Shown piece by piece: positions 2,804 through 43,596 of a stretch of 45,240 nucleotides of DNA. The notes below the pieces were generated by a model that worked only from the letters and a program-made list of their open reading frames with translations, was not told the DNA's origin and ran no database searches. The translations under genes were made by a program, and so were the position numbers. How positions within the stretch are numbered: position 1 is the stretch's first letter; each line of letters opens with the position of its first letter. The stretch comes from Flavipsychrobacter stenotrophus (GTDB lineage Bacteria > Bacteroidota > Bacteroidia > Chitinophagales > Chitinophagaceae), in the NCBI GenBank assembly GCA_945902755.1, contig CAMDNC010000007.1, positions 1 to 45,240 on the forward strand, in the 5' to 3' direction.

Positions 2804-3436
2804 TTATTTGATACGATATCCTACACCGAAGTTTATACCTATTGGTCTGATGCCATTTTCAGGAATAATGTGTATTGACTGAGATATTTGGAGGTCAGGT
2901 GTAATGTCATAAATTATTCCCTGAGTAAAGATAATGTTGATGTATTTCAGTCCGTTAGTTAACCTTCTATCGTCGTTATTTAAGTCTGGGGTAGGTGAAC
3001 TATTATTGTTATAGAATTGGATACCTGTTCCTATATATGGCCTTAACCTTTTACGTTCATTTTGTAACTGATACTGAATACTAAGTGGTATTGAATTGGT
3101 TAAGGGGCTAGTTAAACTTATTGTTTTGTTCTGGCGACCATCATTACTGAGTATTTTGTCAATATCCCTAAAACTTAGTCCAGTTTCTAATCTTAACCTT
3201 GTGGTAAGTGTCATTCTGAAGAGAATCCTATTGGTTGTTTCTTCAGCAATTAGTGTTTTGTTAGTTAATGCTGGGTTATTTTTCTTATAAAGAGTATGGA
3301 TCTGGCGTTCGAAACCAATGGTGAGCTTATGACTTATTCTTGTAAGATTGCTTCTATCATAACCCTGTCCATAGCAATTACTTCCAACTATTGTAGTTGT
3401 TGCAAGTAAAGCAGTCAAGGTTATTTTTCTAATCAT
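2804..3436 (-). CDS. Outer-membrane beta-barrel family protein (uncharacterised)
   Basis: Signal peptide, alternating hydrophobic strands, C-terminal ...GINFGVGYRIK. Confidence 0.55.
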   Translation of the reverse strand: MIRKITLTALLATTTIVGSNCYGQGYDRSNLTRISHKLTIGFERQIHTLYKKNNPALTNKTLIAEETTNRILFRMTLTTRLRLETGLSFRDIDKILSNDGRQNKTISLTSPLTNSIPLSIQYQLQNERKRLRPYIGTGIQFYNNNSSPTPDLNNDDRRLTNGLKYINIIFTQGIIYDITPDLQISQSIHIIPENGIRPIGINFGVGYRIK

Positions 3437-3503
3437 TTGGTTTCGTTTCTTATAACGTGTAAATGTATATTATATTGTTAAAAGAAGGAAATTTTTCATT
3501 GTT

Positions 3504-3519
3504 GTTTCACGTGGAACAT
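3504..3519. promoter_or_regulatory. parS-like centromere site (ParB/Spo0J box)
   Basis: TGTTTCACGTGGAACA; reverse complement TGTTCCACGTGAAACA matches the known parS consensus TGTTNCACGTGAAACA. Confidence 0.85.
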
Positions 3520-3622
3520 CTATATGCTAGTATAAGCATTCTCTATTGGTTTATTGTTGTACAAATCTTGTGCCAAAAGTTTTTTATAATGATTACAAAT
3601 TCTTGTTGTAATTTTTGCTACG

Positions 3623-3630
3623 TATCTTTG
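3623..3630 (+). promoter_or_regulatory. Bacteroidetes-type -7 element (TAnnTTTG) immediately upstream of mnmG
   Basis: TATCTTTG ending 4 nt before the ATG at 3635; possible -33 TTG at 3603-3605 (17-nt spacer). Confidence 0.45.
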
Positions 3631-3634
3631 CCTT

Positions 3635-5503
3635 ATGTTTCCAGTATACGATGTTATTGTTGTAGGAGCAGGGCATGCGGGTTGCGAGGCCGCTGCTGCT
3701 GCTGCTAATATGGGGTCGAAGGTTTTGCTTGTAACAATGAATATGCAGACTATTGCCCAAATGAGTTGTAACCCTGCAATGGGAGGTATAGCAAAAGGTC
3801 AGATTGTACGTGAGATTGATGCTTTGGGTGGCTACAGCGGCATAGTTAGTGATAGGAGCACAATACAGTTTAGAATGCTTAACAAATCCAAGGGTCCTGG
3901 TATGTGGAGTCCTCGTACTCAGAATGATAGGATGTTGTTTGCTAGTACGTGGAGAGAGATGTTGGAGAATACTTCTAATGTTGATTTTTGGCAAGATATG
4001 GTGAAGGGATTAATTGTTTCACGTGGAACAATTGAAGGAGTAGTAACTGGAATGGGTCAAGAGATACGTGCAAAAAGTGTAGTGCTTACAAATGGCACCT
4101 TTCTGAATGGGGTTATACACGTAGGAGAGAAGCAGTTTGGTGGTGGTAGAATGGGAGAAAAAGGCGCCACTGGTATAACAGAACAACTGGTGGAACTGGG
4201 TTTTGAAACAGACAGACTTAAAACTGGTACACCACCAAGGGTAGATGGAAGGAGTCTGGACTACTCTAAGATGGAAATACAAGATGGTGATGATGAAGTA
4301 GTAGGATTCTCTTACTTGCCAATAGATAAAATAAAGCCTAAACAACAAAGGTGCTGCTGGATAACGTACACCAATCAGGAAGTACATGATATACTAAAGA
4401 CTGGTTTTGATCAGTCACCTATGTATCAGGGCAGGATAAAAGGAAGTGGACCTAGGTATTGTCCAAGTATAGAAGATAAAATAAGCAGGTTTGCTGAAAG
4501 AGAAAGGCACCAATTGTTTGTAGAACCTGAAGGATGGAACACAGTAGAGATATACGTGAATGGTTTTAGTACATCATTGCCAGAAGAGGTACAATTCAAA
4601 GCTTTAAAACTTGTACCAGGTTTTGAAAATTGCAAGTTTTTCAGACCAGGTTATGCAATAGAGTACGATTATTTTCCACCAACGCAGTTGAAATTCACAC
4701 TTGAAACGAAACTAATAAAGAATCTATTCTTTGCTGGACAGATAAATGGAACGACAGGCTATGAGGAAGCAGCTTGTCAGGGGTTGATGGCAGGTATTAA
4801 TGCATCTAGAGCGGCACACGAACAAGAACCATTGGTGTTGAAACGCAGCGATGCTTACATAGGTGTATTAATAGACGACCTGATAAATAAGGGTACCGAT
4901 GAACCATACAGAATGTTTACAAGTAGAGCAGAATACAGAACTCTTCTTAGACAAGATAATGCTGATTTCAGACTTACAGAGCTAGGATACAAAATAGGAT
5001 TAGCAAGTAAGGAAAGGTTCGAGTTGATGCAAAGCAAGAAAGAAAAGGTAAAAGCAATAAGAAAAGTACTCGGTGATTTTTCTGTCGACATGGAATCAGC
5101 TAACACATTTCTGATGGAAAACAGTTCAACTGCCCTGATAGAGAAAACAAAAGCACTAAAGTTACTACTCAGACCAGGAATAGGTCTAAAAGAGATGATG
5201 GTTGCAATACCTGCACTTGCTGATGCTATAAACGAGCAAGACCCATTAATACTAGAACAAGTAGAAATACAGACTAAATATGAAGTGTACATTGAAAAAG
5301 AACAAGAGCTGGTATTAAAGATGGCGAATCTGGAAGATTTATTGATACCAGATAGTTTTGATTATGAAAAGCTTTCTTCAATATCTTCTGAAGCAAGACA
5401 AAAACTACAGAAGATTAGGCCGGCTACATTAGGCCAAGCCAGCCGAATAAGCGGCGTAAATCCAAGCGATGTGCAGATTCTTATGGTGTACATGGGTAGG
5501 TAG
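3635..5503 (+). CDS. mnmG: tRNA uridine-5-carboxymethylaminomethyl(34) synthesis enzyme MnmG (GidA)
   Basis: YDVIVVGAGHAGCEAAAAAANMGSKVLLVTMN, CNPAMGGIAKGQIVREIDALGG, FAGQINGTTGYEEAACQGLMAGINA, full length 622 aa. Confidence 0.98.
   Translation: MFPVYDVIVVGAGHAGCEAAAAAANMGSKVLLVTMNMQTIAQMSCNPAMGGIAKGQIVREIDALGGYSGIVSDRSTIQFRMLNKSKGPGMWSPRTQNDRMLFASTWREMLENTSNVDFWQDMVKGLIVSRGTIEGVVTGMGQEIRAKSVVLTNGTFLNGVIHVGEKQFGGGRMGEKGATGITEQLVELGFETDRLKTGTPPRVDGRSLDYSKMEIQDGDDEVVGFSYLPIDKIKPKQQRCCWITYTNQEVHDILKTGFDQSPMYQGRIKGSGPRYCPSIEDKISRFAERERHQLFVEPEGWNTVEIYVNGFSTSLPEEVQFKALKLVPGFENCKFFRPGYAIEYDYFPPTQLKFTLETKLIKNLFFAGQINGTTGYEEAACQGLMAGINASRAAHEQEPLVLKRSDAYIGVLIDDLINKGTDEPYRMFTSRAEYRTLLRQDNADFRLTELGYKIGLASKERFELMQSKKEKVKAIRKVLGDFSVDMESANTFLMENSSTALIEKTKALKLLLRPGIGLKEMMVAIPALADAINEQDPLILEQVEIQTKYEVYIEKEQELVLKMANLEDLLIPDSFDYEKLSSISSEARQKLQKIRPATLGQASRISGVNPSDVQILMVYMGR
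4015..4030. promoter_or_regulatory. Second parS-like site, inside mnmG
   Basis: TGTTTCACGTGGAACA, identical 16-mer to 3504..3519. Confidence 0.85.
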
Positions 5504-5546: not shown

Positions 5547-5996
5547 ATGATAGATCCAGCTATTCTTTATTATTGTAAATATCAGGAAAGGTGTCATTAC
5601 GAGGTAAGGAATAAGTTGTATGAACTTGGGTTCTCAACAATTACGGTTGATGACCAAATAGCTGAACTAATAGCTGCCGATCTATTGAATGAGGAAAGGT
5701 TTGCTATAAGTTTTGCGAGAGGAAAATGGAGAATGCTTCACTGGGGCAGAAATAAGATACGGCAACATTTGAAAATTAGGAACGTATCGGAGTATTGTAT
5801 AAAAAGGGCTTTGCAAGAAATACCTGAAGGTGATTACCAAAGTATGCTAGAACAACTTACAATAAAGAAATGGAATGAGTTGAGAACAGAGAAGAGTAAG
5901 CAGACGAAAAAGGCGAAAGTTTATCGATACATGCTCCAGAAAGGCTTCGAGCAAGAATTGGTGTTAAGTTTTATAGCAGCATGTGAAAAAAAATAG
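5547..5996 (+). CDS. recX: Regulatory protein RecX
   Basis: Length and composition of RecX: CHYEVRNKLYELG, LIAADLLNEERFAISFARGKWRMLHWGRNKIRQHLKIRNVS, YRYMLQKGFE. Confidence 0.85.
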   Translation: MIDPAILYYCKYQERCHYEVRNKLYELGFSTITVDDQIAELIAADLLNEERFAISFARGKWRMLHWGRNKIRQHLKIRNVSEYCIKRALQEIPEGDYQSMLEQLTIKKWNELRTEKSKQTKKAKVYRYMLQKGFEQELVLSFIAACEKK

Positions 5997-41541: not shown

Positions 41542-43596
41542 ATGTCTGTAACACAACTTGAAAACTATGCTGCCGGCAGATGGGTGGGTGGCAATAATGA
41601 AGGCGAAGTGCTGCACAATGCAGTGACAGGTGCAGCTATATATACCGCCAGTAGCGGAGGGCTAAACTTTGCTGAAATGATGCACTATGCCCGCACGGTG
41701 GGCGGACCAGCACTGCGGAAATTGACGTTTCAGGAGCGAGGCAGAATGCTGAAAGCGCTGGCTATGTACCTCATGGAGCGCAAAGAATTTTTCTACACTA
41801 TCAGTGCCTACACCGGTGCTACCCGTGCCGATTCTTGGGTAGATATAGAAGGGGGTATTGGTAATCTATTTGCTTATGCCAGTCTGCGTCGTCAGTTTCC
41901 AGACGAGCGTTTCTATGTAGATGGCGATGCTGCCAAACTGTCGAAGAACAATACATTTATAGGGCATCACATCATGGTGCCAAGAGAGGGTGTAGCTATA
42001 CACATCAATGCATTCAACTTTCCGGTATGGGGAATGCTGGAGAAAATTGCGGTTAATTTGTTGGCTGGTGTACCTGCCATTGTTAAGCCCGCTACGCTTA
42101 CTTCATTCCTTACCGAGGCGGTGTTCAGAGAAATAATAAAATCGGGTATTCTGCCAGAGGGGTCGTTGCAGTTGATATGCGGCTCGGCAAGGGGCATATT
42201 GGACAGTGTAGAAACTATGGATGTAGTGACCTTTACGGGGTCGGCGAGTACAGGTAGAATGCTGAAATCGCACCCTCGCATATTGTCGGAGGCGGTATCG
42301 TTTAATATGGAGGCTGATTCGCTCAACTGTTGCATTCTGGGTATGGACGTCTATCCGGGCATGGCTGAGTTTGACATTTTTATCAAAGAAGTAGTGCGCG
42401 AGGTTACTACAAAAGCAGGACAGAAGTGCACTGCCATCAGGCGTATAATAGTACCAGCCGACAGGGTAGAAGATGTGCAGATAGCACTGGGCAAACGCCT
42501 GCAAACAACCACTATAGGCGACCCTAGCCTAAAAGAGGTACGTATGGGCCCACTGGCAGGTATAAGCCAGCGCAATGAAGTACGTGAAAAGGTGCAGCAA
42601 CTAGCTGCTACACAGCAGATAGTGATAGGCAATATGGAGCACTTTGAGGTATTAGGGGCAGATAAAGAAAAGGGCGCTTTTCTGCCTCCAGTCATATTCC
42701 TCAACAATAATCCATTTGTAAACACCGACTGCCATAATATTGAAGCTTTCGGTCCGGTATCTACCATAATTCCCTACGCTACTACCGACGATGCCATAAC
42801 ATTGGCTCGTATGGGTCTAGGGTCATTAGTATGCTCAGTTATTACACAAGACGATGAAATAGCTAAAGAAATAGTACTTGGCACAGCTACAATGCATGGC
42901 AGAATACTTATACTCAATGCCGATTGTGCCAAGGAAAGTACTGGTCATGGATCACCCATGCCACTACTAGTACATGGTGGTCCTGGACGAGCAGGAGGTG
43001 GAGAGGAAATGGGAGGCAAGCGGGGTGTATTGCATTATCTGCAGCGCACAGCCATTCAGGGGTCACCTACTACCATTACCCGCATCACCAATGTGTATCA
43101 GCAGGGAGGCAAACAACACGAAACAGATATACACCCCTTTAAAAAACATTTTGAAGACCTGCAAATAGGAGAAACACTCACCACAGCCAAACATACAGTA
43201 AGCGAGGCAGACATCACCAACTTTGCCAATGTAAGCGGCGACAACTTCTATGCCCATATGGATGCTACATCGCTAGAGGGCACCATATTTGAGCGTAGGG
43301 TAGCACATGGTTATTTTGTGCTGTCTAAAGCTGCCGGTTTGTTTGTAGATGCAAAGAAGGGTCCGGTATTGCTCAACTATGGCATAGATGAAGCAAGGTT
43401 TACCAAACCTGTTTACCCAGGTATGACTATAGGTGTGCGCCTGACAGTAAAAGAAAAAACAGCTCAGGAAAAACGTACTCCAGAAGATATAACAAAAGGG
43501 ATAGTAAAATGGCTGGTAGATGTATATGACGAAACAGGCGAAACAGTAGCGATTGCTACCATTCTAACCATGGTGCGGATGAAAAACCAAGACTAA
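41542..43596 (+). CDS. paaZ: PaaZ-type bifunctional aldehyde dehydrogenase / MaoC-like enoyl-CoA hydratase
   Basis: ALDH domain (HINAFNFPVWGMLEKIAVNLLAGVPAIVKPA, TFTGSASTGRML, AGQKCTAIRRI) plus C-terminal MaoC-like domain (KHTVSEADITNFANVSGDNFYAHMD...RVAHGYFVLS). Confidence 0.92.
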   Translation: MSVTQLENYAAGRWVGGNNEGEVLHNAVTGAAIYTASSGGLNFAEMMHYARTVGGPALRKLTFQERGRMLKALAMYLMERKEFFYTISAYTGATRADSWVDIEGGIGNLFAYASLRRQFPDERFYVDGDAAKLSKNNTFIGHHIMVPREGVAIHINAFNFPVWGMLEKIAVNLLAGVPAIVKPATLTSFLTEAVFREIIKSGILPEGSLQLICGSARGILDSVETMDVVTFTGSASTGRMLKSHPRILSEAVSFNMEADSLNCCILGMDVYPGMAEFDIFIKEVVREVTTKAGQKCTAIRRIIVPADRVEDVQIALGKRLQTTTIGDPSLKEVRMGPLAGISQRNEVREKVQQLAATQQIVIGNMEHFEVLGADKEKGAFLPPVIFLNNNPFVNTDCHNIEAFGPVSTIIPYATTDDAITLARMGLGSLVCSVITQDDEIAKEIVLGTATMHGRILILNADCAKESTGHGSPMPLLVHGGPGRAGGGEEMGGKRGVLHYLQRTAIQGSPTTITRITNVYQQGGKQHETDIHPFKKHFEDLQIGETLTTAKHTVSEADITNFANVSGDNFYAHMDATSLEGTIFERRVAHGYFVLSKAAGLFVDAKKGPVLLNYGIDEARFTKPVYPGMTIGVRLTVKEKTAQEKRTPEDITKGIVKWLVDVYDETGETVAIATILTMVRMKNQD

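Follow-up and report, generated by a model that had tools for sequence, protein, structure and literature searches.

Two identical 16-mers lying upstream of and within the mnmG (gidA) gene are very probably parS sites of a chromosomal ParABS system, forming a centromere-like cluster beside the replication origin that is anchored at mnmG and whose internal copy is maintained by selection on the DNA itself. This reading was derived from sequence comparison of the window, the whole stretch of 45,240 nt that was analyzed and that forms the start of contig C7 of a 266-contig assembly, with genomes of the same family and phylum. The identity of the 16-mers as parS is almost certain because the genome encodes a parA-parB operon and its ParB retains the two residues that determine specificity. 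Features of the locus are collected in Table 1.

Table 1. Features of the mnmG region in the window, with positions counted from its first nucleotide.
Feature	Position	Strand	Remarks
Divergent 210-aa ORF	2804-3436	-	Function unassigned
Intergenic region between divergent ORF and mnmG	3437-3634	.	Contains site 1
Putative parS site 1, TGTTCCACGTGAAACA	3503-3518	-	Intergenic, upstream of mnmG
mnmG (gidA), tRNA uridine-5-carboxymethylaminomethyl(34) synthesis enzyme	3635-5503	+	Hosts site 2; PF01134 541 bits, TIGR00136 851 bits
Putative parS site 2, TGTTCCACGTGAAACA	4015-4030	-	Inside mnmG, +380
recX-like gene	5547-5996	+	3' of mnmG (context); RecX_HTH1-3

The two 16-mers and the ParB of the genome

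A preliminary description had placed the copies of TGTTTCACGTGGAACA at 3504-3519 and 4015-4030, 511 bp apart; the second position was correct, while the first copy lies at 3503-3518, ending 117 bp before the mnmG start codon, and the spacing is 512 bp. The reverse complement TGTTCCACGTGAAACA matched the ParB consensus TGTTNCACGTGAAACA exactly, bearing out the proposed fit to ParB (Spo0J) sites. Allowing up to two mismatches, the window displayed four strand-wise hits compared to 0.14 expected by chance and none of 100 shuffled windows reached four, such that a chance origin, already held to be improbable, was rejected. Throughout the genome (3,519,299 bp, 266 contigs) the two 16-mers were the sole matches at one mismatch or fewer, i.e., two clustered copies rather than copies dispersed over the contigs, and the same scan with a reversed control pattern gave no match. 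Pfam and NCBIfam profile searches with the divergent 210-aa ORF returned no match. Elsewhere in the window, genes were identified for a protein carrying a PA domain and a type IX secretion sorting tail (595-2559) and an aldehyde dehydrogenase-MaoC fusion (41542-43596).

The genome encodes a ParB (L283:11568-12476) that contains all three ParB domains (ParB_N, HTH_ParB, and ParB_C) and matches solved chromosomal ParBs, with a ParA-type ATPase gene directly upstream in the same operon. In addition, parB was found in all 133 good genomes of the family. As stated previously, neither parAB nor dnaA occurs in the window; they were located on contigs C81 (15.4 kb) and C209, respectively. The suggestion that parAB neighbors mnmG did not hold for this lineage, in which the operon adjoins a gene that we take from its sequence to be dapB, on a contig devoid of parS.

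Specificity for parS is conferred by the residue pair R173 and G201, for which the paralogue Noc has Q and R (PMC7383237). The equivalent ParB positions, assigned by their spacing to Q162, N178, and R204 in the HTH sequence with the numbering of the same study, were R and G, the parS-type pair. Noc-binding sites (NBS), recognized by a ParB paralogue, resemble the parS palindrome but differ at positions 1 and 6 and are scattered over the chromosome (PMC7383237). The present sites are two and clustered and the ParB carries R and G rather than Q and R; assignment as NBS was therefore rejected.

Anchoring of the sites at mnmG and the origin

In genomes throughout the phylum, the parS cluster is tied to mnmG. 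Within the family, 50 of 150 genomes contained the exact 16-mer, at 77 distinct sites. Of these, 76 shared a contig with mnmG and lay in the gene or no more than 2.2 kb upstream of it; the lone exception was on another contig of a 790-contig assembly in which the mnmG contig breaks inside the gene. The 14-bp core GTTYCACGTGRAAC was matched in 104 of the 150 genomes and in 97 of 130 fetched family mnmG loci, 90 of them with a core site within 1.5 kb upstream of the gene. Between -1000 and +500, a site with at most two mismatches was identified in 20 of the 33 core-less loci (0/660 shuffles) and no site even at two mismatches in the other 13 of the 130, and six altered control patterns gave no match in 210 mnmG loci. 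The same link was observed in Algoriphagus, Roseivirga, Pedobacter, Mucilaginibacter, Flavobacterium, Winogradskyella, Chryseobacterium, Terrimonas, and Chitinophaga. In a phylum sample, TGTTCCACGTGAAACA occurred in 41 of 148 genomes and within 2.2 kb of mnmG in 37 of these, the four exceptions being on other contigs (three) or 25 kb from mnmG (one).

The relatives resemble the present genome in having few sites in one cluster (here two, 512 bp apart). A single parS site is often sufficient (PMC7022226; PMC4368675), in agreement with the genomes that have one copy. The plainest explanation for the anchoring at mnmG is that an origin-adjacent position was simply retained; a regulatory link is conceivable, though unsupported.

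Variations in cluster architecture were also recorded. Nine core sites were found within about 2 kb upstream of mnmG in G004 (a Terrimonas ferruginea contig), G016, and G117, compared to one or two in most relatives. Nine Flavobacteriaceae loci (L150, L160, L161, L162, L163, L165, L167, L173, and L178) had parS cores on both sides of mnmG, upstream at about -25 to -75 and at about +1875 to +1950, just past the stop codon. In Flavobacterium sp. MC2016-06 (L170), four copies of the near-parS sequence TGTTCCACATGGAACA were placed at -666, -550, -433, and -315 relative to mnmG, with a spacing of approximately 117 bp, between six canonical sites and the gene. Two loci labeled as the proteobacteria Azovibrio restrictus (L105, JANLJF010000048.1) and Limnohabitans (L175, JASGCW010000006.1) encoded a Bacteroidota-like MnmG and these records are thus probably mislabeled or contaminated. 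Finally, mnmG of one single-contig genome (G109:C1:5559915-5561779) was split into two overlapping frames by either a frameshift or a sequencing error.

Origin position was mapped in complete relatives from sampled 20-kb stretches, with tiled sequence used for the minima. In the complete genomes G116 and G023, GC skew changed from negative to positive at the sites with the reverse turn on the far side of the chromosome. Their cumulative GC-skew minima lay at 187.5 and 640.7 kb compared to parS at 180.2 and 631.4 kb, respectively, and this distance of about 7 and 9 kb indicates that the sites mark the origin, supporting the earlier suggestion that the window may be origin-proximal. LGM1 (CP075895.1), a closer relative with a complete genome, had core sites at 152.6-153.9 kb only. 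Its skew is clean over most of the chromosome but mixed from about 3.15 Mb through to 0.21 Mb, too noisy there for fine origin mapping, and parS at 153 kb is consistent with the skew turn without being precisely at it. The GC skew of the window itself, covering 45,240 nt of a 266-contig genome, displayed neither a minimum nor a turn, and no DnaA-box cluster was found adjoining the sites.

The proximity of parAB to parS and the origin that is usual, although not defining, was not observed in the six complete relatives (G116, G023, G119, G117, G019, and G056), as parB was 0.72, 0.74, 1.3, 1.8, 1.8, and 3.3 Mb from parS, respectively. The corresponding distances for dnaA were 0.43, 1.43, 1.76, 0.75, 1.94, and 2.99 Mb. 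A study of gut bacteria, Bacteroidota among them, independently places parS clusters at skew-defined origins, and in some of its species dnaA lies elsewhere (PMC10197239).

The intragenic site at codons 128-132

On the plus strand, the internal site corresponds to mnmG codons 128-132 (GTT TCA CGT GGA ACA) encoding V-S-R-G-T. Internal sites in the family genomes occurred only at +380 (24 genomes) and +1595 (two genomes), and with the inclusion of named relatives, 28 distinct carriers had the +380 site at the same codon position. The cultured Edaphocola aurantiacus is one of the carriers and has three further sites upstream of the gene. All 28 carriers have V-[SP]-R-[GE]-T as residues 128-132; none of the remaining 181 rows in the 210-row MnmG alignment has this peptide, and turns such as K-D-G-R occupy its place. 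The rarer site at +1595 (L233/L112 from G083 and L253 from G033) is a second fixed intragenic parS, encoding V-P-R-E-T, and the two related genomes that carry it also have the +380 site.

Comparison of the codons across related mnmG genes identified 128-132 as the five lowest-entropy columns among 230 degenerate codon columns in the carriers. The median entropy of the degenerate columns was 1.85 bits, while codons 128-131 each used one codon for the majority residue, which was seen in no other column. Given the encoded residues and the codon usage of each gene, the exact V-S-R-G codons had a median probability of 0.0016 per gene. The entropy test selects carriers by their DNA and a selection by peptide was added as a check, in which all 29 rows chosen by peptide (one being a duplicate genome) contained the parS DNA. 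In addition, the exchanges of S to P and G to E fall on the two tolerant bases of parS (Y at position 5 and R at position 12). The five least variable codons together with substitutions confined to tolerant bases argue that the DNA site is conserved and not the protein. The codon patterns consequently indicate that the internal site is kept by selection on DNA and that V-[SP]-R-[GE]-T is imposed by it, the reverse of the coding constraint earlier supposed to maintain this copy. Alignments with solved MnmG structures show little conservation of residues 128-132, suggesting that the stretch was probably a permissive surface turn.

Mapped onto an MnmG tree built without the site columns and including 27 carriers, the +380 trait required five changes compared to 25 for shuffled labels. 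One supported clade held 23 of the 27 carriers and two further pairs fell outside, while L280 and L282 are long branches whose placement is unsure. Losses inside the carrier clade were identified for L041, L043, and the L050/L051 pair and coincided with loss of the peptide. As the carriers are related, the codon evidence does not represent 28 independent events. Outside the family, a search of the remaining genomes among 396 from the phylum and 399 from the order found no in-frame +380 pattern.

The four nested genomes that lost the site are the observation favoring the view that the internal copy is a decaying relic of an ancestral function and that the upstream copy alone works. This is very unlikely, since the 28 carriers lack synonymous drift in the site although other codons of mnmG vary freely, and the assemblies of G021, G012, and G114 have no core match other than the +380 site. 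It is more improbable still that the palindrome is a transcription factor operator regulating mnmG with no role in segregation. One copy does end a short way ahead of the mnmG start codon, and many mnmG loci have upstream sites; however, the sequence is the exact ParB consensus, occurs at the GC-skew turn in a family with ParB in every good genome, and is found inside mnmG, 3' of it in Flavobacteriaceae, up to 2.2 kb upstream, and in clusters of as many as nine. The least credible proposal, a mere by-product of a conserved MnmG peptide VSRGT, agrees with the site being in frame and nearly all carriers encoding the same peptide, but is contradicted by site-less relatives with quite different residues at this position, by the single codons and their low probability, by S/P and G/E coinciding with the parS-tolerant positions, by VPRET recurring at +1595 in two genomes, and by no clade orthologue having been seen with V-S-R-G-T in other codons.

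Comparison with known systems and significance

The preferred reading, parS sites with a DNA-selected internal copy, places the locus alongside the ParB-parS systems of Bacillus subtilis (Spo0J), Pseudomonas aeruginosa, and Caulobacter, with which it shares the 16-bp palindrome, few clustered sites near the origin, a parA-parB operon, and a ParB with parS-type residues. In model systems, parS is the nucleation point for ParB, which then spreads as a CTP clamp and loads SMC, with ParA moving it (reviewed in PMC7333895). By analogy, ParB from the distant parAB operon would load at both sites, slide outward as a CTP clamp, and recruit SMC, and ParA would move ParB such that the origin region segregates first.

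Sites for parS, also within genes, are already known and 9 of the 10 parS sites of P. aeruginosa are in coding sequences (PMC4368675). Unlike in the model ParABS systems, parAB and dnaA lie at a great distance from the sites, and one intragenic site keeps its codon position in about 20 genera and sets five amino acids of its host enzyme. The gut Bacteroidota clusters are similar in their skew-defined origin and in dnaA being an unreliable origin marker; the available portion of that study makes no mention of an mnmG anchor or an intragenic site (PMC10197239), compared to both being identified here over several hundred genomes. In a literature search that did not extend to the parS survey of Livny 2007, no report was found of parS being anchored at mnmG throughout a phylum while parAB and dnaA lie apart, nor of an intragenic parS at a fixed codon position setting the host peptide.

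A doubtful extension is that in this clade the centromere has partly moved into an enzyme gene, with the internal copy as the only canonical site of some species, and that ParB loading in mnmG ties expression of the enzyme to origin segregation. If true, this tie would explain the anchoring at mnmG throughout the phylum. A synonymous change of the five codons would abolish the site and leave the protein intact, making its function directly testable. The fixed intragenic site is a clear example from nature of a DNA-binding site that dictates part of a protein sequence, and it bears on why parS positions persist over long evolution. The mnmG-parS link provides a simple means of recognizing the origin in fragmented Bacteroidota genomes, in which dnaA and parAB mislead.
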